Source of the DNA: Deltaproteobacteria bacterium
GTDB lineage: Bacteria; Desulfobacterota; Binatia; UBA9968; JAJDTQ01
Reading direction: 5' to 3'
Assembly (NCBI GenBank): GCA_028818775.1
Contig: JAPPNE010000146.1
Coordinates: 1-34,125 of the forward strand
DNA: 34,125 nucleotides
Shown: piece after piece, positions 5,730 to 32,333 of the stretch
How positions within the stretch are numbered: position 1 is the first letter of the stretch
Layout: every line of letters begins with the position of its first letter
Made by a program: the position numbers and the translations under genes
Notes under the pieces: generated by a model
What the model was told of the DNA's origin: nothing
What the model saw: only the letters and a program-made list of their open reading frames with translations
Database searches by the model: none

Positions 5730-6470
5730 CTACCCCTTCAGGTGCCTGGCCAGGAACGCCAGCGTCTTGGGCCAGACGTCCTTGGCGGAGGCCTCGTGGT
5801 AGCTCGGGCGATCGTCGCAGAAGAACGCGTGGCCCGCGTCGTCGTACAGGTGCCACTCGTAGTCTACGGCGTTGGCCTTCAGCGTGTCCTCGATGGCGTC
5901 CCGGGCCTCCTGGGGGATGCCCTGGTCCTGCCCGCCCCATACGCACTGCATCGGGATCTTGATGTTGTTCCCCTGGGTCACGGGCTCCACCGGGCTCTTC
6001 TCGCCGCGCTGACCGCCGGCGATCTGGCCGCCGTAGTACAGGCTGCTGCACGCAAGCCCCGGGCAGTTGCACGCCGCCATCCACGACACCCGGCCGCCGA
6101 AGCAGTAACCGATGATGCCCACCCGGTCCGGGTCCACGTCGTCGCGCCCCTTGGCGTAGGCAATGGCGCGGTTCAGGTCCTCGACGACCTTGGTGTCGTA
6201 AAGGGTGCCGCGGGCGGCAAAGGCGCCGTCGCGGTCGGTGTTGGGGATGACGCGCTCGTCCAGGCGATAGTAGAGATCCGGCGATACTGCCACGTAACCC
6301 TCGTTGGCGAAGCGTTCGGTGACATCCTTCATGTGCGCGTTGACGCCGAAGATCTCCATGATCACCAGCAGCGCCGGCTTCCTGCCGTCGCCGTCGGGCG
6401 CGGCCACGTACAGGCCCATGGACTTGCCGTCTTCGGCGGGGATGTCCACCGTTGCGAGGTTGATGCTCAT
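5730..6470 (-). CDS. Dienelactone hydrolase family protein
   Basis: An alpha/beta-hydrolase of 246 residues and typical family length. The triad is visible: nucleophile Cys123 in GYCFGG, Asp182 in GGQDQ and His214 in DAGHAFF. Glu39 in IMEIFG matches the glutamate that activates the cysteine in dienelactone hydrolase. The start at 6470 (MSINLATVDIPAEDG) is chosen because AGGAGGA precedes it by five bases; the open frame continues 48 codons upstream without such support. The classical enzyme opens dienelactone in chlorocatechol and related ring-cleavage pathways, but many relatives hydrolyse other esters or lactones. It is the first gene of the minus-strand catabolic run and is probably cotranscribed with crotonase B. 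Confidence 0.9.
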   Translation of the reverse strand: MSINLATVDIPAEDGKSMGLYVAAPDGDGRKPALLVIMEIFGVNAHMKDVTERFANEGYVAVSPDLYYRLDERVIPNTDRDGAFAARGTLYDTKVVEDLNRAIAYAKGRDDVDPDRVGIIGYCFGGRVSWMAACNCPGLACSSLYYGGQIAGGQRGEKSPVEPVTQGNNIKIPMQCVWGGQDQGIPQEARDAIEDTLKANAVDYEWHLYDDAGHAFFCDDRPSYHEASAKDVWPKTLAFLARHLKG

Positions 6471-6527
6471 CGTGTTCCTCCTGTGGGTTGTGTTTTGTTC
6501 AGATTCGATGGGATCGACGAGAGTTCT

Positions 6528-6556
6528 CATTGACACGGGGTTCGCGAAGCTGTCAA
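6528..6556 (-). promoter_or_regulatory. Candidate promoter of the catabolic operon
   Basis: On the minus strand a perfect TTGACA (6551-6556) is followed after 17 bases by TCAATG (6528-6533). The second hexamer is a poor -10 match. The position, 58 bases before the dienelactone-hydrolase ATG at 6470, suits a promoter for the leftward operon. No operator could be recognised. Confidence 0.4.
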
Positions 6557-6628
6557 GGACGGGTCCGCGGGGAATGACGCTCGGTTGGCCCGTGGCCGGT
6601 GAGTTGTGACGCAACCTGGATGGACGTT

Positions 6629-6656
6629 TTGTTACCGCTGGGCGTTGTGCTACTCT
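6629..6656 (+). promoter_or_regulatory. Candidate promoter of the ThrH-like gene
   Basis: TTGTTA (6629-6634), a 16-base spacer, then TACTCT (6651-6656), preceded by TTGTGC. The -10 region resembles those proposed at 12790 and 26571 (TAGTGT and TAGTCT). It would give a leader of roughly 85 bases before the ATG at 6748. Confidence 0.35.
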
Positions 6657-6747
6657 CCCGATTTCGGGCCTGCGTCACCCCGCGGGCCAACCCCAATTCC
6701 CGACGCCCTCGCCGGTGCTCGGAATTCGACCGGGACGTATCGATATC

Positions 6748-7341
6748 ATGCAAATCTGCTGTTTGGACCTGGAGGGAGTCCTCCTGCCGGAAATCTGGAT
6801 CGCGGTGGCCGAGCATTTCCACAACGACGACCTGCGGCTCACCACGCGCGACATCTCCGACTACGACCAGCTCATGCAGCACCGCCTGAAGGTGCTCCGG
6901 AGGAACCGCATCCGGCTGGCGGACATCCAGGGCGTCATCGCCGGCATGGAGCCGCTGCCCGGGGCCAGGGACTTCCTCGACGACCTCTATCAGGACTTCC
7001 AGGTGGTGCTGCTGTCGGACACCTACTACGAGTTCGCCATGCCGCTGATCCGGAAGCTGGGGAACCCGACGCTCTTGTGCAACTGGCTCACGGTGAGCCG
7101 GTCGGGGTACATCGCGAACTACATCCTCCGCCAGAAGGACGGCAAGCGCAAAGCCGTGAGGGCGTTCAAGCAGATCGGCTTTCGCGTGGTGGCGGCGGGG
7201 GACTCCTACAACGACCTGAGCATGCTGCGCACCGCCGACCGCGGCGTGCTGTTCAACCCGCCGGAGGCCATCGTCAAGCGGTACCCGGCTTTTCCGGTCT
7301 CGCGCGACTACGCGACGCTGTCGCGGTTGCTGAGACAGTAA
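6748..7341 (+). CDS. thrH: ThrH-type phosphoserine phosphatase / homoserine phosphotransferase
   Basis: A HAD-superfamily protein of 197 residues. Motif I is CLDLEGVLLPEIW (Asp7 as nucleophile, Glu9 in the second position), which is the peculiar ThrH form rather than DxDxT. Motif II is LLSDTYYEF, then LRQKDGKRKAV supplies the lysine, and GDSYNDLSML is motif IV. The order and the wording (TLLC, LRQKD) follow Pseudomonas ThrH closely. That enzyme dephosphorylates phosphoserine and can move the phosphate to homoserine, linking serine and threonine synthesis. ATG 6748 is chosen because the family begins directly with this strand; upstream codons are not conserved. A stand-alone gene, followed by a palindromic repeat. 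Confidence 0.9.
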   Translation: MQICCLDLEGVLLPEIWIAVAEHFHNDDLRLTTRDISDYDQLMQHRLKVLRRNRIRLADIQGVIAGMEPLPGARDFLDDLYQDFQVVLLSDTYYEFAMPLIRKLGNPTLLCNWLTVSRSGYIANYILRQKDGKRKAVRAFKQIGFRVVAAGDSYNDLSMLRTADRGVLFNPPEAIVKRYPAFPVSRDYATLSRLLRQ

Positions 7342-7364
7342 AGTACCTTCAACGGCGCCGTTCG

Positions 7365-7433
7365 GTCCTGAGCCCTTCGACAAGCTCAGGACAGGCTTAG
7401 CGGAGCGCAAGCGAAGCGACGTCGAAGGACGCC
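7365..7433. repeat. Palindromic repeat (REP-like, copy 2)
   Basis: GTCCTGAGC (7365-7373) and GCTCAGGAC (7384-7392) form a 9-bp stem around a loop containing CCTTCGAC. GTCGAAGGACGC follows at 7421-7432. It shares the core CCCTTCGACAAGCTCAGGAC with copy 1 at 511-598 but has only one flank preserved. It lies in the gap between thrH and the cyclic amidohydrolase gene and ends 24 bases before the latter's start. Confidence 0.8.
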
Positions 7434-7456
7434 GACAGCAACCAAGGAGAACTTCC

Positions 7457-8848
7457 ATGCTCGACGTGCTGATTTCCAATGCCGAAATTATCCATGCCAA
7501 GGGCCGCTACAACGCCTCGGTAGGCGTTCAGGACGGCCTCATCGCCGGAATCTACCAGCCCGGGGCCGAGCCCGAGGCGGGCGAGGTGGTGGACGCCTCC
7601 GGGCTGGCGCTGATCCCCGGCGCGGTGGACATGCATTCGCACCACCGCGAGGGCGGCGAGCCCGGCGGCTACGACTACAAGGAGAACATCCACACCGCCA
7701 CCATGCAGTGCGCCGCCGGCGGCGTCACCACGTCGGTGGCCATGCCCAACGTGACGCCGCCGCCCAACACGGTGCCGCGCCTCGAACAGTTGTTCTCGGT
7801 CTACGAGCGCGAGTCGATCATCGACTTCAACGTAAACCCGGCCGGCACCATCCCGGAAGAGATCCCCAAGCTGGCCAAGATGGGCATCGGCGCATTCAAG
7901 GTGTTCATGGTGGTGGACACCGGCCGGGACTATCCGCACATGCCGGGCATCGGCGTCCACGACCACGGCAAGATCATGGAGATCATGGAGGCCTGCGCGG
8001 CGGCCAACGTACCGCTCATGGTCCATCCCCACGACCAGCCTCTCATGGACTACATCGAGAAGAAGTACTGGGACCGGGGGGAGCGCGACTGCCTGGCCTA
8101 CGCCAAAGCCTATGCCGAACACGACGGGGTGATCTGGGAAACCGCCATCCAGTTCCTCATCCGCCTGCAGGCGGCCACCGGTGTGCACCTGCACGTGCTG
8201 CACGTCCAGACCGAGGGCACCGTGGAGATGATCCGCCGCGCCAAGGACGCCGGCCGGCGGGTGACCGCCGAGGTCAACCCCTGGGCGATCTTCCTGGGGT
8301 CGGACTGGAGCGAGATCGAGCGGCTGGGCTCCTACGCCCTCTCCTACTGGATCCCGGAAAAGAACTCGCCGGCCCTGTGGGAGGGTCTGCGCGACGGCAC
8401 CATCGACATCGTCGCCACCGACCACGCGCCGCACACGCGCGAGGAGAAGGAGATCGGCTGGGAGGACGGCTGGAAGGCGCACACCGGCACGCCGTCCGCG
8501 CAATATTACATGAGCCTGCTCATGGACGCCGCCTCCAAGGGCAAGATCTCGCTGGAGCGCATGGTCGAGGCCACCTCCACCCTGCCGGCGCGCATCTTCG
8601 GCGTGCACAACAAGGGCCGCATCGAGGTGGGCTACGACGCCGACCTGGCGCTGGTGGACCTGAACGCCGAGAAGGAGATCCGCGACGAGGACGTGCTCAG
8701 CAAAATCGGCTGGAGCCCCTACGCCGGGCGCACGCTCAAGGGCTGGCCGGTACGCACGTTCGTGCGCGGCACCACCGTGTACCGCGACGGCAAGGTAGTG
8801 GGAAAGAAGGGCCACGGCCGGCAGGCCAAGGCCACGTACCCCGGGTAG
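7457..8848 (+). CDS. Dihydroorotase/hydantoinase-like cyclic amidohydrolase
   Basis: A metal-dependent amidohydrolase of 463 residues with the full binuclear site visible: His60 and His62 in DMHSHH, Lys148 (bridging carboxylated lysine) in GAFKVFM, His190 in MVHPHD, a histidine around 246 in VHLHVLH, and Asp322 in VATDHAPH. The N-terminal strands and the C-terminal segment GYDADLALVDL form the small beta domain of the family. Such enzymes open cyclic amides: dihydroorotate, hydantoins, allantoin. No pyrimidine or purine catabolic genes adjoin it, so the substrate is open; a hydantoinase or allantoinase-like role is as likely as dihydroorotase. AAGGAGA lies six bases before the ATG. Confidence 0.9.
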   Translation: MLDVLISNAEIIHAKGRYNASVGVQDGLIAGIYQPGAEPEAGEVVDASGLALIPGAVDMHSHHREGGEPGGYDYKENIHTATMQCAAGGVTTSVAMPNVTPPPNTVPRLEQLFSVYERESIIDFNVNPAGTIPEEIPKLAKMGIGAFKVFMVVDTGRDYPHMPGIGVHDHGKIMEIMEACAAANVPLMVHPHDQPLMDYIEKKYWDRGERDCLAYAKAYAEHDGVIWETAIQFLIRLQAATGVHLHVLHVQTEGTVEMIRRAKDAGRRVTAEVNPWAIFLGSDWSEIERLGSYALSYWIPEKNSPALWEGLRDGTIDIVATDHAPHTREEKEIGWEDGWKAHTGTPSAQYYMSLLMDAASKGKISLERMVEATSTLPARIFGVHNKGRIEVGYDADLALVDLNAEKEIRDEDVLSKIGWSPYAGRTLKGWPVRTFVRGTTVYRDGKVVGKKGHGRQAKATYPG

Positions 8849-20406: not shown

Positions 20407-20619
20407 ATGAGAACGACCCTGAACATAGACGACGAACTGCTGGCGCGGGCACGTGAGCTTACCAACATCACCACCAAACCAGCGCTGATCCGGGAAGCCC
20501 TTCGAGCCCTCGTGGAGCGGGAAAGCGCGCGACGGCTCGCCAAACTCGGCGGCAGTCAGCCTGACTTGCAACCGGTTCCACGGCGGCGCCCCGCCGACGA
20601 CGCTCCGTCCAGCCCATGA
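20407..20619 (+). CDS. vapB: VapB-type antitoxin
   Basis: A protein of 70 residues starting MRTTLNIDDELLARARELT, the ribbon-helix-helix VapB signature that binds operator DNA. ALIREALRALVERESARRLA forms the following helices, and a proline/arginine-rich tail (PVPRRRPAD) is the probable toxin-wrapping end. It neutralises VapC and represses the operon. GGGAGC lies about 7 bases before the ATG. Its stop overlaps the toxin start by four bases (ATGA), the standard toxin-antitoxin coupling. Confidence 0.88.
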   Translation: MRTTLNIDDELLARARELTNITTKPALIREALRALVERESARRLAKLGGSQPDLQPVPRRRPADDAPSSP

Positions 20620-20978
20620 TCCTGATCGATACCTCGGTATGGATCGAGCACCTGCGCACCGGAGACCGGGAATTGACGCACCTGCTGGAAACCGATCAAG
20701 CGCTTGTCCATCCTTTTGTCATCGGCGAGTTGGCGTGCGGCAATCTTGCCCGACGCCAAGAGATCCTGGCGATGTTGCAGGACCTGCCCACCCTCCCCGC
20801 CGCGGAAGATTCCGAAGTGCTTTATTTCATTGGACGAAACCAGTTGATGGGACGGGGCATCGGGTACATTGACATGCATCTGCTGGCAGCCGCGGCCCTG
20901 GCTCCCCCAGCGCGACTGTGGACACGAGACAAACGTCTGGGAGCCGCAGCCGACAGGCTTGGCCTGGCTCACCGATGA
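20616..20978 (+). CDS. vapC: VapC-type PIN-domain ribonuclease toxin
   Basis: A PIN-domain protein of 120 residues. Acidic metal-binding residues are visible: Asp5 in LIDTSVWIEH, Glu39 in VIGELACGN, an Asp in GYIDMHLLAAA and the last Asp in WTRDKRLGAAA. Members cleave tRNA or rRNA when freed from VapB. It is complete and in frame, so the module appears functional. It converges with the AbiEii gene, 59 bases from stop to stop. Confidence 0.92.
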   Translation: MILIDTSVWIEHLRTGDRELTHLLETDQALVHPFVIGELACGNLARRQEILAMLQDLPTLPAAEDSEVLYFIGRNQLMGRGIGYIDMHLLAAAALAPPARLWTRDKRLGAAADRLGLAHR

Positions 20979-28864: not shown

Positions 28865-29014
28865 CCACGTTCTCCGGTTGAGCAAGGCCCAGCCAACGCC
28901 GCATTCGCGAACCGCCGAGCAACCGCGTATTCTCCCCTCCCTATAGTGCCGGCAGGTTCGTAGCTCCACCACATATGGGGGATAGCGGATCGGGTGTCAA
29001 CCAACTGCGTCGAC

Positions 29015-29046
29015 TTGACATGGACGCCGTGCGGTGCTGCGATAAT
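29015..29046 (+). promoter_or_regulatory. Promoter of the Rieske/cyt b/octaheme operon
   Basis: GATAAT (29041-29046) is preceded directly by TGC, an extended -10. A consensus TTGACA lies at 29015-29020, but the spacer is 20 bases, longer than usual, so the extended -10 may do most of the work. Start of transcription would be about 45 bases before the Rieske ATG. Confidence 0.5.
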
Positions 29047-29097
29047 ATTGGGACATGCCCAGTGGGCCAAGGGGCCCGAAGCCAAGAGAGAGGCCCG

Positions 29098-29583
29098 ATG
29101 ACACAGTCCGGCGACGGTTCCAGCGGCGGCGCCACCCGCCGCGACACGCTCGCGCTGCTCCTCATGGGCGCGGGCCTAGCCCTGAGCTATGGCCTGCTGG
29201 CCGCCGAGGGCTTCCTGTTCCTCCTGCCCCGGCGCCTCGAACCTCGGGTCCGCTGGCTCTTCGCGGGACGGCTGGACGAGTACCCTGAAGGCGCGGTGCG
29301 CGGGTTCACGGGGCTCGACGGCACGGAAATCCTCATCAAGCGCAAACCCGAAGGCGTCGAAGCGTTCAGCTCGGTGTGTCCGCACCTGGGATGCCGCGTC
29401 CACTGGGTGCCGGACCGGAAAGAGTTCTTCTGTCCCTGCCACAACGGCGTGTTCGACGGCGACGGCGTGGCGGTGTCCGGACCGCCCGCGGACGCGGGAC
29501 AAAGCCTCGCGCGCGTGCCGCTTAGGGTCGACGACGCCGGCGAGGTCGTCTACATCGGCGTCAGGGACACGGGCAAGGCGTAG
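29098..29583 (+). CDS. Rieske 2Fe-2S subunit of a cytochrome bc-type complex
   Basis: A protein of 161 residues with an N-terminal membrane anchor (about 17-43) that follows a twin-arginine (TRRDTLALLL), suggesting Tat-dependent insertion with the cluster domain outside. The cluster motifs are CPHLGC (Cys94, His96) and CPCHNG (Cys112, His115), with the disulfide cysteines 99 and 114 in place. It accepts the first electron from quinol at the Qo site. It starts the operon, and cytochrome b begins 8 bases after its stop. AGAGAGG lies before the ATG. Ordinary length for a bc-complex Rieske protein. Confidence 0.92.
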   Translation: MTQSGDGSSGGATRRDTLALLLMGAGLALSYGLLAAEGFLFLLPRRLEPRVRWLFAGRLDEYPEGAVRGFTGLDGTEILIKRKPEGVEAFSSVCPHLGCRVHWVPDRKEFFCPCHNGVFDGDGVAVSGPPADAGQSLARVPLRVDDAGEVVYIGVRDTGKA

Positions 29584-29591
29584 GGACGGCC

Positions 29592-30650
29592 ATGGGCAAG
29601 CCATCCGTGGGCGACCGCCTCCAGGCCATGTTCCCGTTCGACTGGGAACTGCTGAGGCACGCGGGCGCCGAGCCCATCCCCCACCACCTCAAGAAATGGT
29701 GGTTCTGCCTCGGCGGCACGGTCCTCTACCTCTTCGTCGTGCAGGTGGTCACCGGCATCGCCCTGACCTTCTACTACGTGCCCTCGCCCGAGGAGGCCTA
29801 CGCCAGCGTGGCCGCCATCACCCACGAGATCCGCTTCGGCTGGTTCATCCGCTCGCTCCACAAGTGGGCCGCCAACCTCATGATCATCGCGGTGATCCTG
29901 CACATGCTGCGGGTCTTCTTCACCGGCGCTTACCGCCATCCGCGGCAGCTCAACTGGTGCGTGGGCTTCCTGCTGTTGATGGCGACCCTCGCCTTCGGAT
30001 TCACGGGCTACTCGCTGGTCTTCGAGCAACTGAGCTTCTGGGGCGCCACCGTGGCCGCGAACCTGGCCGAGGCGGTGCCGCTCGCCGGCCCGTGGATGGC
30101 CTGGTTCCTGCGCGGCGGCCCGGAGGTCGGCGGCGCCACGCTGACGCGCTTCTACGTCCTCCATATCGGCCTGCTGCCCACGGTCACCTTCGTACTGCTG
30201 GCGCTGCATATCCTGTTGATCCGGCTCCAGGGCGTGACGGAGCTGGAGACGACGGACCAGACCGCCAAGGCGGAGGAACGCCACTTCCCGTTCTGGCCGG
30301 ACCACGCCACCACCGAGATCCTCATCGGCGTGCTGCTCATGTACCTGCTGACCATCCTGGCACTGGTCTTCCCCGCGGGCCTCGGGCCGCCGGCGGATCC
30401 CACCCAGACCCCGGACCACATCAAGCCCGAATGGTTCTTCTACTTCAGTTTCCGCCTGCTCAAGCTGACGTCGCTGCGCGTGAGCGTGGCGCTGACCGTA
30501 GCCATGGGGGTCATCGCGTTTTTCTGGCCCTTCATTGAGGAGTGGTGCCGTCGGCGCTGGCGCGTGCCCGACGGCGTCCCCGTGACGCTGGGGACCCTGG
30601 CGTTCCTGTTCTTCCTCGTGCTGACCGTATGGGAGTCGTTCGCGAGCTAG
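29592..30650 (+). CDS. Cytochrome b (fused b6/subunit IV type)
   Basis: A membrane protein of 352 residues. Haem ligands: His90 in SLHKWAAN, His104 in ILHMLR, His191 in YVLHIGLLP and His206 in ALHILLI. The 14- and 15-residue spacings between pairs are like cytochrome b6 rather than mitochondrial cytochrome b. The Qo motif is PEWFF (279-283), with Phe for the usual Tyr, after DPTQTPDHIK. There are about seven TM helices: four of b6 type followed by three of subunit IV type, so the two proteins are fused. It carries quinol oxidation with the Rieske protein. The next gene (25 bases on) is the octahaem cytochrome; no c1 is seen. Confidence 0.94.
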   Translation: MGKPSVGDRLQAMFPFDWELLRHAGAEPIPHHLKKWWFCLGGTVLYLFVVQVVTGIALTFYYVPSPEEAYASVAAITHEIRFGWFIRSLHKWAANLMIIAVILHMLRVFFTGAYRHPRQLNWCVGFLLLMATLAFGFTGYSLVFEQLSFWGATVAANLAEAVPLAGPWMAWFLRGGPEVGGATLTRFYVLHIGLLPTVTFVLLALHILLIRLQGVTELETTDQTAKAEERHFPFWPDHATTEILIGVLLMYLLTILALVFPAGLGPPADPTQTPDHIKPEWFFYFSFRLLKLTSLRVSVALTVAMGVIAFFWPFIEEWCRRRWRVPDGVPVTLGTLAFLFFLVLTVWESFAS

Positions 30651-30675
30651 TCCGTCGCAACCAGGAGGCGTTCCC

Positions 30676-32271
30676 GTGAGCCTTGCATTCAAACGCTATC
30701 TCATCGCCGGTCTCTCGTTCCTCTTCCTCGCCGCGCTGCTGCTGGTGGCCTGGCAGGAGTCGCGCCGGCACCGGGTGGAAGAAGGCCGGGAGGCCGTGGT
30801 CACCGCCGCCAACCAAGCGTGCGTGACCTGCCACAAGGTGGACTCCCCGGCCATGGTCATGCAATGGGAGCAGTCCCGCCACGCCCAGTTCGGCGTGGGC
30901 TGCGTGGATTGCCATCGGGCCAACGAAGGCGAAGTCGACGCCTGGATGCACGAGGGGCGGCTGATTTCGGCGCTGGTGACGCCCACGGACTGCGCCCGCT
31001 GCCACGTGCGCGAACACCGGGAGTTCGCCCGCAGCCACCATGCGCGCGCCGGCGAGATCCTGGCCAGCCTCGACAACGTGCTGGCCGAGAAGGTGGCGGG
31101 CATGCCCGGCAACATCGCCGACGCGGTCAACGGCTGCTGGCAGTGCCACGGCAGCCTCGTCAAGTTCAAGCGGGACGCGGACGGCGCGATCCTGCGCACC
31201 GGCAAGGAGAACAAGCCGGTCATCGACCCGGACACCTGGCCCAACAGCGGCATGGGGCGGCTCAATCCCGACGGCTCCAAGGGCTCGTGCCACGCCTGCC
31301 ACTCACGCCATTCGTTCCAGGCCAAGCTGGCGCGCGCCCCGGAAAACTGCGGCAAGTGCCACATGGGTCCCGACCACCCGCAGATCGAGATCTACAACGA
31401 ATCGAAGCACGGCATCGCCTTCCACGCCAACCGTGCCCACATGGCGCTGGACAAGGAGGGCGAGTGGGTGCTGGGACGGGACTACGCCGCCGCGCCCACC
31501 TGCGCCACCTGCCACATCAGCAGCCACATGACGCCGCAGGGCGTGAAGAGGGGCAACAAGCACGACGTGGGCGAGCGCATAAGCTGGACGCTGCGGCCCG
31601 TGATCAGCACCAAGCTGAACCGGGTGATCTTCAAGGACGGTTACCAGGAAGACTATCCGGACACGCGGGCGCTGCCGAAGGTCGGCGACACCGTGGAAAC
31701 CGTCGAGAAGGTGGTGCGCAACGAGAGGCTGGTGAACCGCACGTTGGAGCGGCGCGTGGCCCGCATCGTGACCTGGGAGCAGCGGCGGGAGAACATGAAG
31801 CAGGTCTGCCGCAACTGCCACAACGACACCTACATCGACAACTTCTACCACCAGTTCGACCAACTGGTGGTGCTGTACAACGAAAAGTTCGCCCGGCCGG
31901 CGCAGCAGATCATGAACGAGCTCAAGGCCGACGGCGTGCTCAAGGCCAACGCGCCGTTCGCGCACGACGTGCAATGGACCTTCTGGGAGCTGTGGCACCA
32001 CGAGGGGCGCCGGGCGCGGCACGGCGCCAGCATGATGGGTCCGGACTACACCCACTGGCACGGCATGTACGAGGTCTCGAAGCACTTCTACTTCAAGTTC
32101 CTGCCGCACGTCATCAAGGCCGCCGCCACCAAGGGGCCGGAGATGAAGCAGAAGTACGAGCGGCGCGTCCAGGCGTTGCTGGCACGGCCCGAGAACCTGT
32201 GGCTCAAAGGCCTCAGTGCGGAGGAGGCGGAGGCGCTCCGAAAAACCTACGAGGAGCGCTACGACCAGTAG
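30676..32271 (+). CDS. Membrane-anchored octahaem HAO-like cytochrome c
   Basis: A protein of 531 residues starting with GTG (AGGAGG seven bases before). Residues 7-26 form a TM anchor with no clear cleavage site. Eight CxxCH haem sites follow, at residues 49, 76, 106, 154, 205, 225, 276 and 378. From recall, the segment WPNSGMGRLNPDGSKGSCHA, then CGKCHMGPDHPQIEIYNESK, matches hydroxylamine oxidoreductase closely. HAO oxidises hydroxylamine (to nitrite or NO) or, in its reductive relatives, reduces nitrite or hydroxylamine; a tyrosine cross-linked to haem P460 distinguishes the oxidative type. GPDYTHWHGMYEV near residues 455-467 supplies candidate tyrosines (458, 464). Position after Rieske and cytochrome b suggests it exchanges electrons with that complex. 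Its natural substrate is not proven. Confidence 0.9.
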   Translation: MSLAFKRYLIAGLSFLFLAALLLVAWQESRRHRVEEGREAVVTAANQACVTCHKVDSPAMVMQWEQSRHAQFGVGCVDCHRANEGEVDAWMHEGRLISALVTPTDCARCHVREHREFARSHHARAGEILASLDNVLAEKVAGMPGNIADAVNGCWQCHGSLVKFKRDADGAILRTGKENKPVIDPDTWPNSGMGRLNPDGSKGSCHACHSRHSFQAKLARAPENCGKCHMGPDHPQIEIYNESKHGIAFHANRAHMALDKEGEWVLGRDYAAAPTCATCHISSHMTPQGVKRGNKHDVGERISWTLRPVISTKLNRVIFKDGYQEDYPDTRALPKVGDTVETVEKVVRNERLVNRTLERRVARIVTWEQRRENMKQVCRNCHNDTYIDNFYHQFDQLVVLYNEKFARPAQQIMNELKADGVLKANAPFAHDVQWTFWELWHHEGRRARHGASMMGPDYTHWHGMYEVSKHFYFKFLPHVIKAAATKGPEMKQKYERRVQALLARPENLWLKGLSAEEAEALRKTYEERYDQ

Positions 32272-32333
32272 GCTTACAGAGCAAACCGCTGTAGATACCG
32301 CGCGGGTCCGGACACCTGCCGACTGCCGCGGAA

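Follow-up and report, generated by a model that had tools for sequence, protein, structure and literature searches.

An octahaem cytochrome in the place of cytochrome c1: a candidate quinol:nitrite oxidoreductase operon from a Binatia genome

Which protein takes electrons from the Rieske head of a Rieske/cytochrome b complex whose operon encodes neither cytochrome c1 nor cytochrome f? The question is raised by three consecutive genes on contig JAPPNE010000146.1 (C146; the whole stretch of 34,125 nucleotides is referred to below as the window), which belongs to a 4.1 Mb metagenome-assembled genome (MAG) of Binatia, GCA_028818775.1. The genes encode a Rieske protein, a cytochrome b, and an octahaem cytochrome c (OCC) that resembles hydroxylamine oxidoreductase (HAO). 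We hypothesize, with a probability of about 0.6, that the trio forms an electrogenic quinol:nitrite (or other nitrogen-oxide) oxidoreductase complex in which the OCC replaces cytochrome c1 or f.

An initial annotation of the window had described three plus-strand genes separated by 8 and 25 bases, with no c1 or f gene and with a membrane-anchored octahaem product. The coordinates, the Pfam domains and the eight CXXCH motifs agree with this: all three open reading frames lie on the plus strand with gaps of 8 and then 25 bases, the Cytochrome_B and Cytochrom_B_C domains of Pfam share one chain in the cytochrome b, and no cytochrome c1 or f gene occurs within the operon. The anchor appears in the AlphaFold model of the OCC as a hydrophobic N-terminal helix (residues 3-31). 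The trio is flanked by an M23 peptidase gene and a methyltransferase gene, nap genes are not adjacent, and a scan for promoters and terminators gave no useful result. The features used below are:

29098..29583, plus strand: Rieske [2Fe-2S] protein, 161 amino acids (PF00355, E 1.9e-10), with an N-terminal twin-Arg anchor region
29592..30650, plus strand: cytochrome b, 352 amino acids, b6 and subunit IV fused in a single chain (PF00033, E 9e-57; PF00032, E 8e-8)
29706..29708, plus strand: cytochrome b Cys39, counterpart of the b6 haem c_n Cys, in an F-C-L-G-G motif
30426-30437, plus strand: PEWF Qo motif of cytochrome b, read from the sequence
30676..32271, plus strand: octahaem HAO-like cytochrome c (OCC), 531 amino acids, eight CXXCH
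30676..30783, plus strand: N-terminal membrane anchor of the OCC, residues 1-36, motif M.L..KR.[VIL][VI][AG]
31372..31377, plus strand: Asp233-His234 pair of the OCC, aligned with the catalytic Asp267-His268 of Nitrosomonas HAO
32053..32055, plus strand: His460 of the OCC, where HAO and HOX have the P460-crosslinking Tyr (hhalign against HOX and HAOr profiles)
29014..32310, plus strand: cassette missing at the matching site in six genomes of the same genus (ends approximate, junctions judged by eye from the empty site of genome G006)

The arrangement is not confined to the window. Scanning the sequence collection with the window OCC returned at least 80 loci, and in at least 21 of them, besides the window and spread over about ten phyla, a Rieske gene and a cytochrome b gene stand directly upstream of the OCC gene. 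By their record titles, the linked matches listed come from Binatia, Latescibacterota, Ignavibacteria, KSB1, Zixibacteria, Gemmatimonadota, Acidobacteriota, Calditrichota, Deltaproteobacteria and a MAG of the FCB group; in every one of them the octahaem protein occupies the c1/f place. The initial annotation had allowed that relatives might keep the octahaem gene apart from Rieske/cytochrome b, or might link a c1 gene to the latter; the neighbourhood survey found the homologues linked in the loci just counted, and no c1 gene linked to this Rieske/cytochrome b in the loci examined. Pairwise distances among the Rieske, cytochrome b and OCC proteins correlate (r 0.70-0.85), with 0 of 2000 permutations as high. 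Given the number of linked loci, the correlated distances and the joint presence or absence of the genes at one site (below), the arrangement is not due to chance: judged by these genomic patterns the trio is real and conserved, and its products most likely form one complex.

The N-terminus of the OCC varies with the company the gene keeps. Among the matches listed, the stretch ahead of the first CXXCH is exactly 48 residues long in all 22 Rieske/cytochrome b-linked OCCs (the window's included), and the anchor motif is present in 22 of 22 linked OCCs versus 0 of 52 unlinked ones (Fisher p 2.7e-19, which is not a true probability, as the rows share ancestry). The linked proteins are 62% identical in the N-terminus versus 71% in the core; for solo OCCs with an ATG start the values are 11% versus 69%, and their N-termini mostly resemble cleavable or lipoprotein signals. 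The OCCs linked to an NrfD module (L072-L081, below) likewise have signal-peptide-like N-termini. On the OCC tree the linked label requires four changes. Such conservation of the anchor helix suggests a specific contact with a membrane partner.

Within the genus of the window MAG the three genes behave as a cassette. The trio is present in three of nine genomes, and in the other six (L152-L157) the site is empty, with the M23 peptidase and methyltransferase genes adjacent and separated by a short spacer only; as far as these genomes indicate, gain or loss affects the whole trio together. Beyond the genus, the order contributed 26 other genomes, and an OCC was found in only one of them (G024). 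That locus (L139, G024:C29, positions 6437-8501, minus strand) holds an intact anchored OCC preceded by just the last 91 residues of a cytochrome b (the subunit-IV half), the Rieske gene and the b6 half being missing, and seems to be a cassette that has decayed or been deleted in part. The proposal that the OCC partners the Rieske head, taking the c1/f place, in a genome that is not that of an anammox bacterium, thus has good support from the linkage, the partner-specific anchor and the all-or-none cassette; as to its substrate and the direction of electron flow, and likewise the physical complex and its Q-cycle coupling, we can only infer.

The motifs of the Rieske protein and cytochrome b are those of a working b6/f-type core rather than a decayed one, since the Rieske ligands, the b-haem His residues, PEW and the c_n Cys are all conserved. 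The cluster motifs CPHLGC and CPCH of the Rieske protein are complete, and across 20 linked homologues (window included) their Cys and His ligands are invariant, as are the b-haem His residues 90, 104, 191 and 206 of cytochrome b. The PEW of the Qo motif is also invariant, the next residue being F in the window and Y or F elsewhere, and Cys39, the equivalent of b6 Cys35 (haem c_n), is kept in 19 of the 20.

The OCC contains exactly eight CXXCH motifs and matches Multi-haem_cyto (PF13447, E 6e-23) and Cytochrome_C554 in Pfam. Its fold matches to 4qo5, 4n4j, 6h5l and 1fgj exceed the unrelated rows (Z 12.8-18.3), with the proviso that a family unlisted by VIA-align is not thereby excluded. The nearest solved structure is the Ignicoccus octahaem cytochrome 4QO5 (profile E 1e-61; fold Z 18.3), followed in both sequence and fold by HAO, HOX, HAOr and HDH. 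The Asp233-His234 pair, which aligns with Asp267-His268 of Nitrosomonas HAO (1fgj), is invariant in 44 of 44 OCCs, and so are other active-site residues. The octahaem fold and the catalytic Asp-His are common to the window OCC, Nitrosomonas HAO and Kuenenia HOX and HDH, whereas the Tyr that crosslinks to haem 4 in these P460 enzymes is theirs only: profile-profile alignment (hhalign) found no such Tyr in the window OCC and paired His460 with the crosslink Tyr in HOX and with a Trp in HAOr. Position 460 is His in 43 of 44 OCCs and Phe in one. A neighbouring residue, Tyr458, was considered as the crosslink residue on account of a local 'YT' motif, and was ruled out by the same placement of His460 opposite the HOX Tyr. 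HAO proteins without the crosslink Tyr have been assigned to the reductive kind (PMC12758564), and with His460 in its place the window OCC is predicted to be a reductase. A segment between haems 7 and 8 (residues 303-365; 31582-31770) is predicted by the model to be rich in beta structure and has no counterpart in the HOX alignment.

What the OCC is linked to in other lineages bears on the direction of electron flow. In ten listed loci from Desulfobulbaceae, Deltaproteobacteria and Campylobacterota (L072-L081) it lies behind a 4Fe-4S protein and/or an NrfD-type membrane protein, which together make up a known kind of quinol-linked module, and both NrfD-type and Rieske/cytochrome b modules are normally quinol-oxidising. 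That the same OCC follows the 4Fe-4S and NrfD module in Desulfobulbaceae and Campylobacterota suggests that quinol is the electron source of the OCC. A tetrahaem cytochrome (~181 amino acids) and a protein of ~232 amino acids of unknown kind flank the 4Fe-4S/NrfD/OCC genes in roughly half of these ten copies, or more. In the remaining listed OCC loci, among them those of anammox bacteria, Elusimicrobia and Verrucomicrobia, no adjacent quinol module was recognised on the basis of gene clusters, which are not a full annotation of the neighbours. As to substrate, the trio has NapA-, NapD- and NapM-like genes as neighbours in L009 and L015; in L004 its neighbour is a NapA-like gene, and another such gene stands beside a contig-end OCC in L028; the NapA-like protein of L009 has NapA as its best NCBIfam score, below the curated cutoff. 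Separately, a conserved protein of ~206 amino acids without a Pfam match, perhaps an accessory protein or one that assists maturation, is encoded after the OCC in six trio loci (L005, L006, L008, L015, L018, L048), ~1.6 kb past the OCC start.

With quinol-oxidising modules, a reductive active site and Nap-like neighbours in relatives, nitrite reduction is the simplest reading. The b6/f-like Rieske/cytochrome b module, with c1/f replaced by an N-terminally anchored OCC of the reductive HAO family, would oxidise quinol at the Qo site (PEWF). One electron would pass from the Rieske cluster to the OCC and reach its open active-site haem; there nitrite, our first choice, or another nitrogen oxide (hydroxylamine, NO) would be reduced, the product in the case of nitrite being ammonium or NO. 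The second electron would be recycled via haems bL, bH and c_n, making the reaction electrogenic.

The alternative that survives best, although we consider it unlikely, is that the OCC acts merely as an electron wire: a multihaem stand-in for c1/f, from which electrons would go to a soluble carrier and then to a separate terminal reductase or oxidase. The genus offers a precedent in its housekeeping Rieske/b6/IV complex, which has a 909-amino-acid cytochrome with eight CXXCH in the c1 position and apparently serves aerobic respiration, so that multihaem c1 substitutes are normal in the lineage and the lack of c1 is by itself unremarkable; COX1, moreover, is present in seven of the eight other genomes of the genus. 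The housekeeping cytochrome, however, belongs to another family, and a mere wire would have no need of the catalytic Asp-His and other active-site residues that are invariant in the OCCs, or of stand-alone, exported existence without Rieske/cytochrome b, in which the same protein also occurs.

We judge it distinctly improbable that the same quinol-linked complex acts on another oxyanion such as sulfite, tetrathionate or selenite. Octahaem reductases are promiscuous (PMC6449678), the authors of the Thermosulfurimonas study left tetrathionate or polysulfide open for an NrfD-linked locus (PMC5276818), and the best NCBIfam score of the N-terminal half of the window cytochrome b is that of ExtP from selenite/tellurite operons, below cutoff; but an HAO-type active site, together with Nap-like neighbours in three or four loci, argues for nitrogen oxides. 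Slightly less probable again is an oxidative direction in which the OCC would oxidise hydroxylamine, NO or the like and feed electrons through Rieske/cytochrome b into the quinone pool: its HAO-family fold and the reverse operation of bc complexes in acidophilic iron oxidisers speak for it, but the crosslink Tyr that marks HAO, HOX and HDH is replaced by His460, and the exchange for an NrfD module and the Nap linkage in relatives point to reduction.

Several points weigh against a quinol:nitrite oxidoreductase. We found no published biochemistry for this OCC clade together with Rieske/cytochrome b. HAO-family enzymes are trimeric and cytochrome b is dimeric, a stoichiometry that the proposal leaves unexplained. 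The AlphaFold model of the OCC has a predicted local distance difference test (pLDDT) score below 50 at residues 226-233 and 451-459, near the active-site region. The distribution of COX1 given above means that the genus is generally aerobic, and the complex would therefore be accessory. Finally, none of the seven molybdopterin proteins scanned in the window MAG passed the cutoff for Nar or Nap; with no recognised Nar/Nap in the MAG and the trio not beside nap, nitrite would need an external source.

The genomic background of the genus also bears on how the trio is to be viewed. A second b6-like cytochrome b occurs in eight of the eight other genomes of the genus, which together with the frequency of COX1 weakens the idea that the trio is the sole Rieske/cytochrome b complex of an anaerobic organism. 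In the window MAG we found no second cytochrome b, COX1 or housekeeping 909-amino-acid cytochrome, which may reflect either loss or a binning gap. NrfA was ruled out as a competing nitrite reductase, none having been found in the nine genomes of the genus. The housekeeping Rieske/b6/IV complex with its large cytochrome (eight CXXCH, several Cytochrom_C domains) was observed at L140 (6700-12520) and L141 (2957-8763), where the gene after that of the cytochrome encodes a product weakly matching cupredoxin; the window MAG yielded no match to the b6 gene or the large cytochrome of these two loci.

How does the trio relate to systems already described? The window trio belongs to a kind already reported in Caldithrix abyssi, where a Rieske/cytochrome b/epsilon-Hao cluster (Cabys_2558-2556) beside nap, in the absence of NrfAH, was published in 2017 with the proposal that electrons pass from quinol via Rieske/cytochrome b to an octahaem nitrite reductase, directly or via NapM (PMC5317091). 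By the published order the genes Rieske, cytochrome b and OCC are arranged identically (PMC5317091), and a Calditrichota MAG locus (L015) has the trio with an OCC 71% identical to that of the window. The difference lies in the setting: in C. abyssi the trio is inside the nap cluster, and in the window it is alone between the peptidase and methyltransferase genes.

The initial annotation had instead pointed to the bc-type complexes of anammox bacteria, and a HAO-like subunit does exist there, but the comparison holds as a parallel only. The anammox Rieske/cytochrome b complex kuste4569-4574 (bc-3), for which nitrite conversion to NO is proposed, is reported to comigrate as a complex (PMC12954380), and like the window trio it combines a b6/f-type Rieske/cytochrome b with a HAO-like octahaem protein. 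Its operon in K. hertensis (L142), with subunits named after PMC12954380, encodes a Rieske protein, an NAD(P)-oxidoreductase-like protein, b6, IV, a hexahaem and an octahaem protein; separate b6 and IV genes and the NAD(P) oxidoreductase and hexahaem subunits are all unlike the window operon. The octahaem protein itself (kuste4574 type, L104 in L142) is non-orthologous, with 26% identity to the window OCC and an apparent C-terminal membrane helix, and in our tree, in which branches are long, it groups with HAOr apart from the OCC clade, across a starred branch. Operon content, identity and tree position rule out kinship with the kuste4574 complex. Two other octahaem proteins of K. hertensis (L026, L032) do fall in the window's OCC clade, and these stand alone; as the kuste4574-type protein falls in another clade, octahaem proteins were probably recruited twice by Rieske/cytochrome b complexes. 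The stand-alone anammox OCCs are, at 64-70% identity, the closest sequence relatives of the window OCC among the known systems compared, but lack linkage to Rieske/cytochrome b and have signal-peptide-like or lipoprotein-like N-termini. They presumably correspond to HAO5, because a published tree joins HAO5A with Ignicoccus (PMC12758564). A further likeness, an HAO-like octahaem protein whose gene is linked to those of a quinol module, is seen in Thermosulfurimonas dismutans and Dissulfuribacter, which have an NrfD and HaoA-homologue locus beside nap, no NrfA, and quantitative conversion of nitrate to ammonium (PMC5276818); there the module is NrfD with 4Fe-4S, not Rieske/cytochrome b.

The window-type complex is thereby set apart from the anammox complex, which took up a different octahaem protein, and what is new here is the spread of the trio, the partner-specific anchor, the alternation with NrfD, the behaviour of the genes as a cassette and the distinction from kuste4574. 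One reductase family appears to serve two quinol modules (Rieske/cytochrome b and NrfD) and to occur alone, with the anchor confined to the Rieske/cytochrome b case. More speculatively, and at slightly less than even odds, we suggest a self-contained energy-conserving quinol:nitrite oxidoreductase, that is, a complex III with a built-in anchored terminal reductase and without a soluble cytochrome c, in which an exported octahaem reductase acquired its anchor when it became associated with a fused b6/IV cytochrome b, in an event separate from that behind the kuste4574 complex, and which spread as a unit cassette across about ten phyla. When enzymes of the NrfA type ammonify nitrite, the reductase step is usually regarded as non-electrogenic; with an octahaem reductase supplied straight from a Rieske/cytochrome b module, nitrite ammonification could be coupled to a Q-cycle, and this coupling could be tested in cultivable relatives such as Caldithrix abyssi.

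Two observations stand apart from the argument. The window OCC is 88% identical to that of OY282432, an uncultured Candidatus Binatia chromosome. Elsewhere in the window, positions 20616-20978 hold a PIN-domain (VapC-like) gene with a small open reading frame directly upstream, a possible toxin-antitoxin pair.

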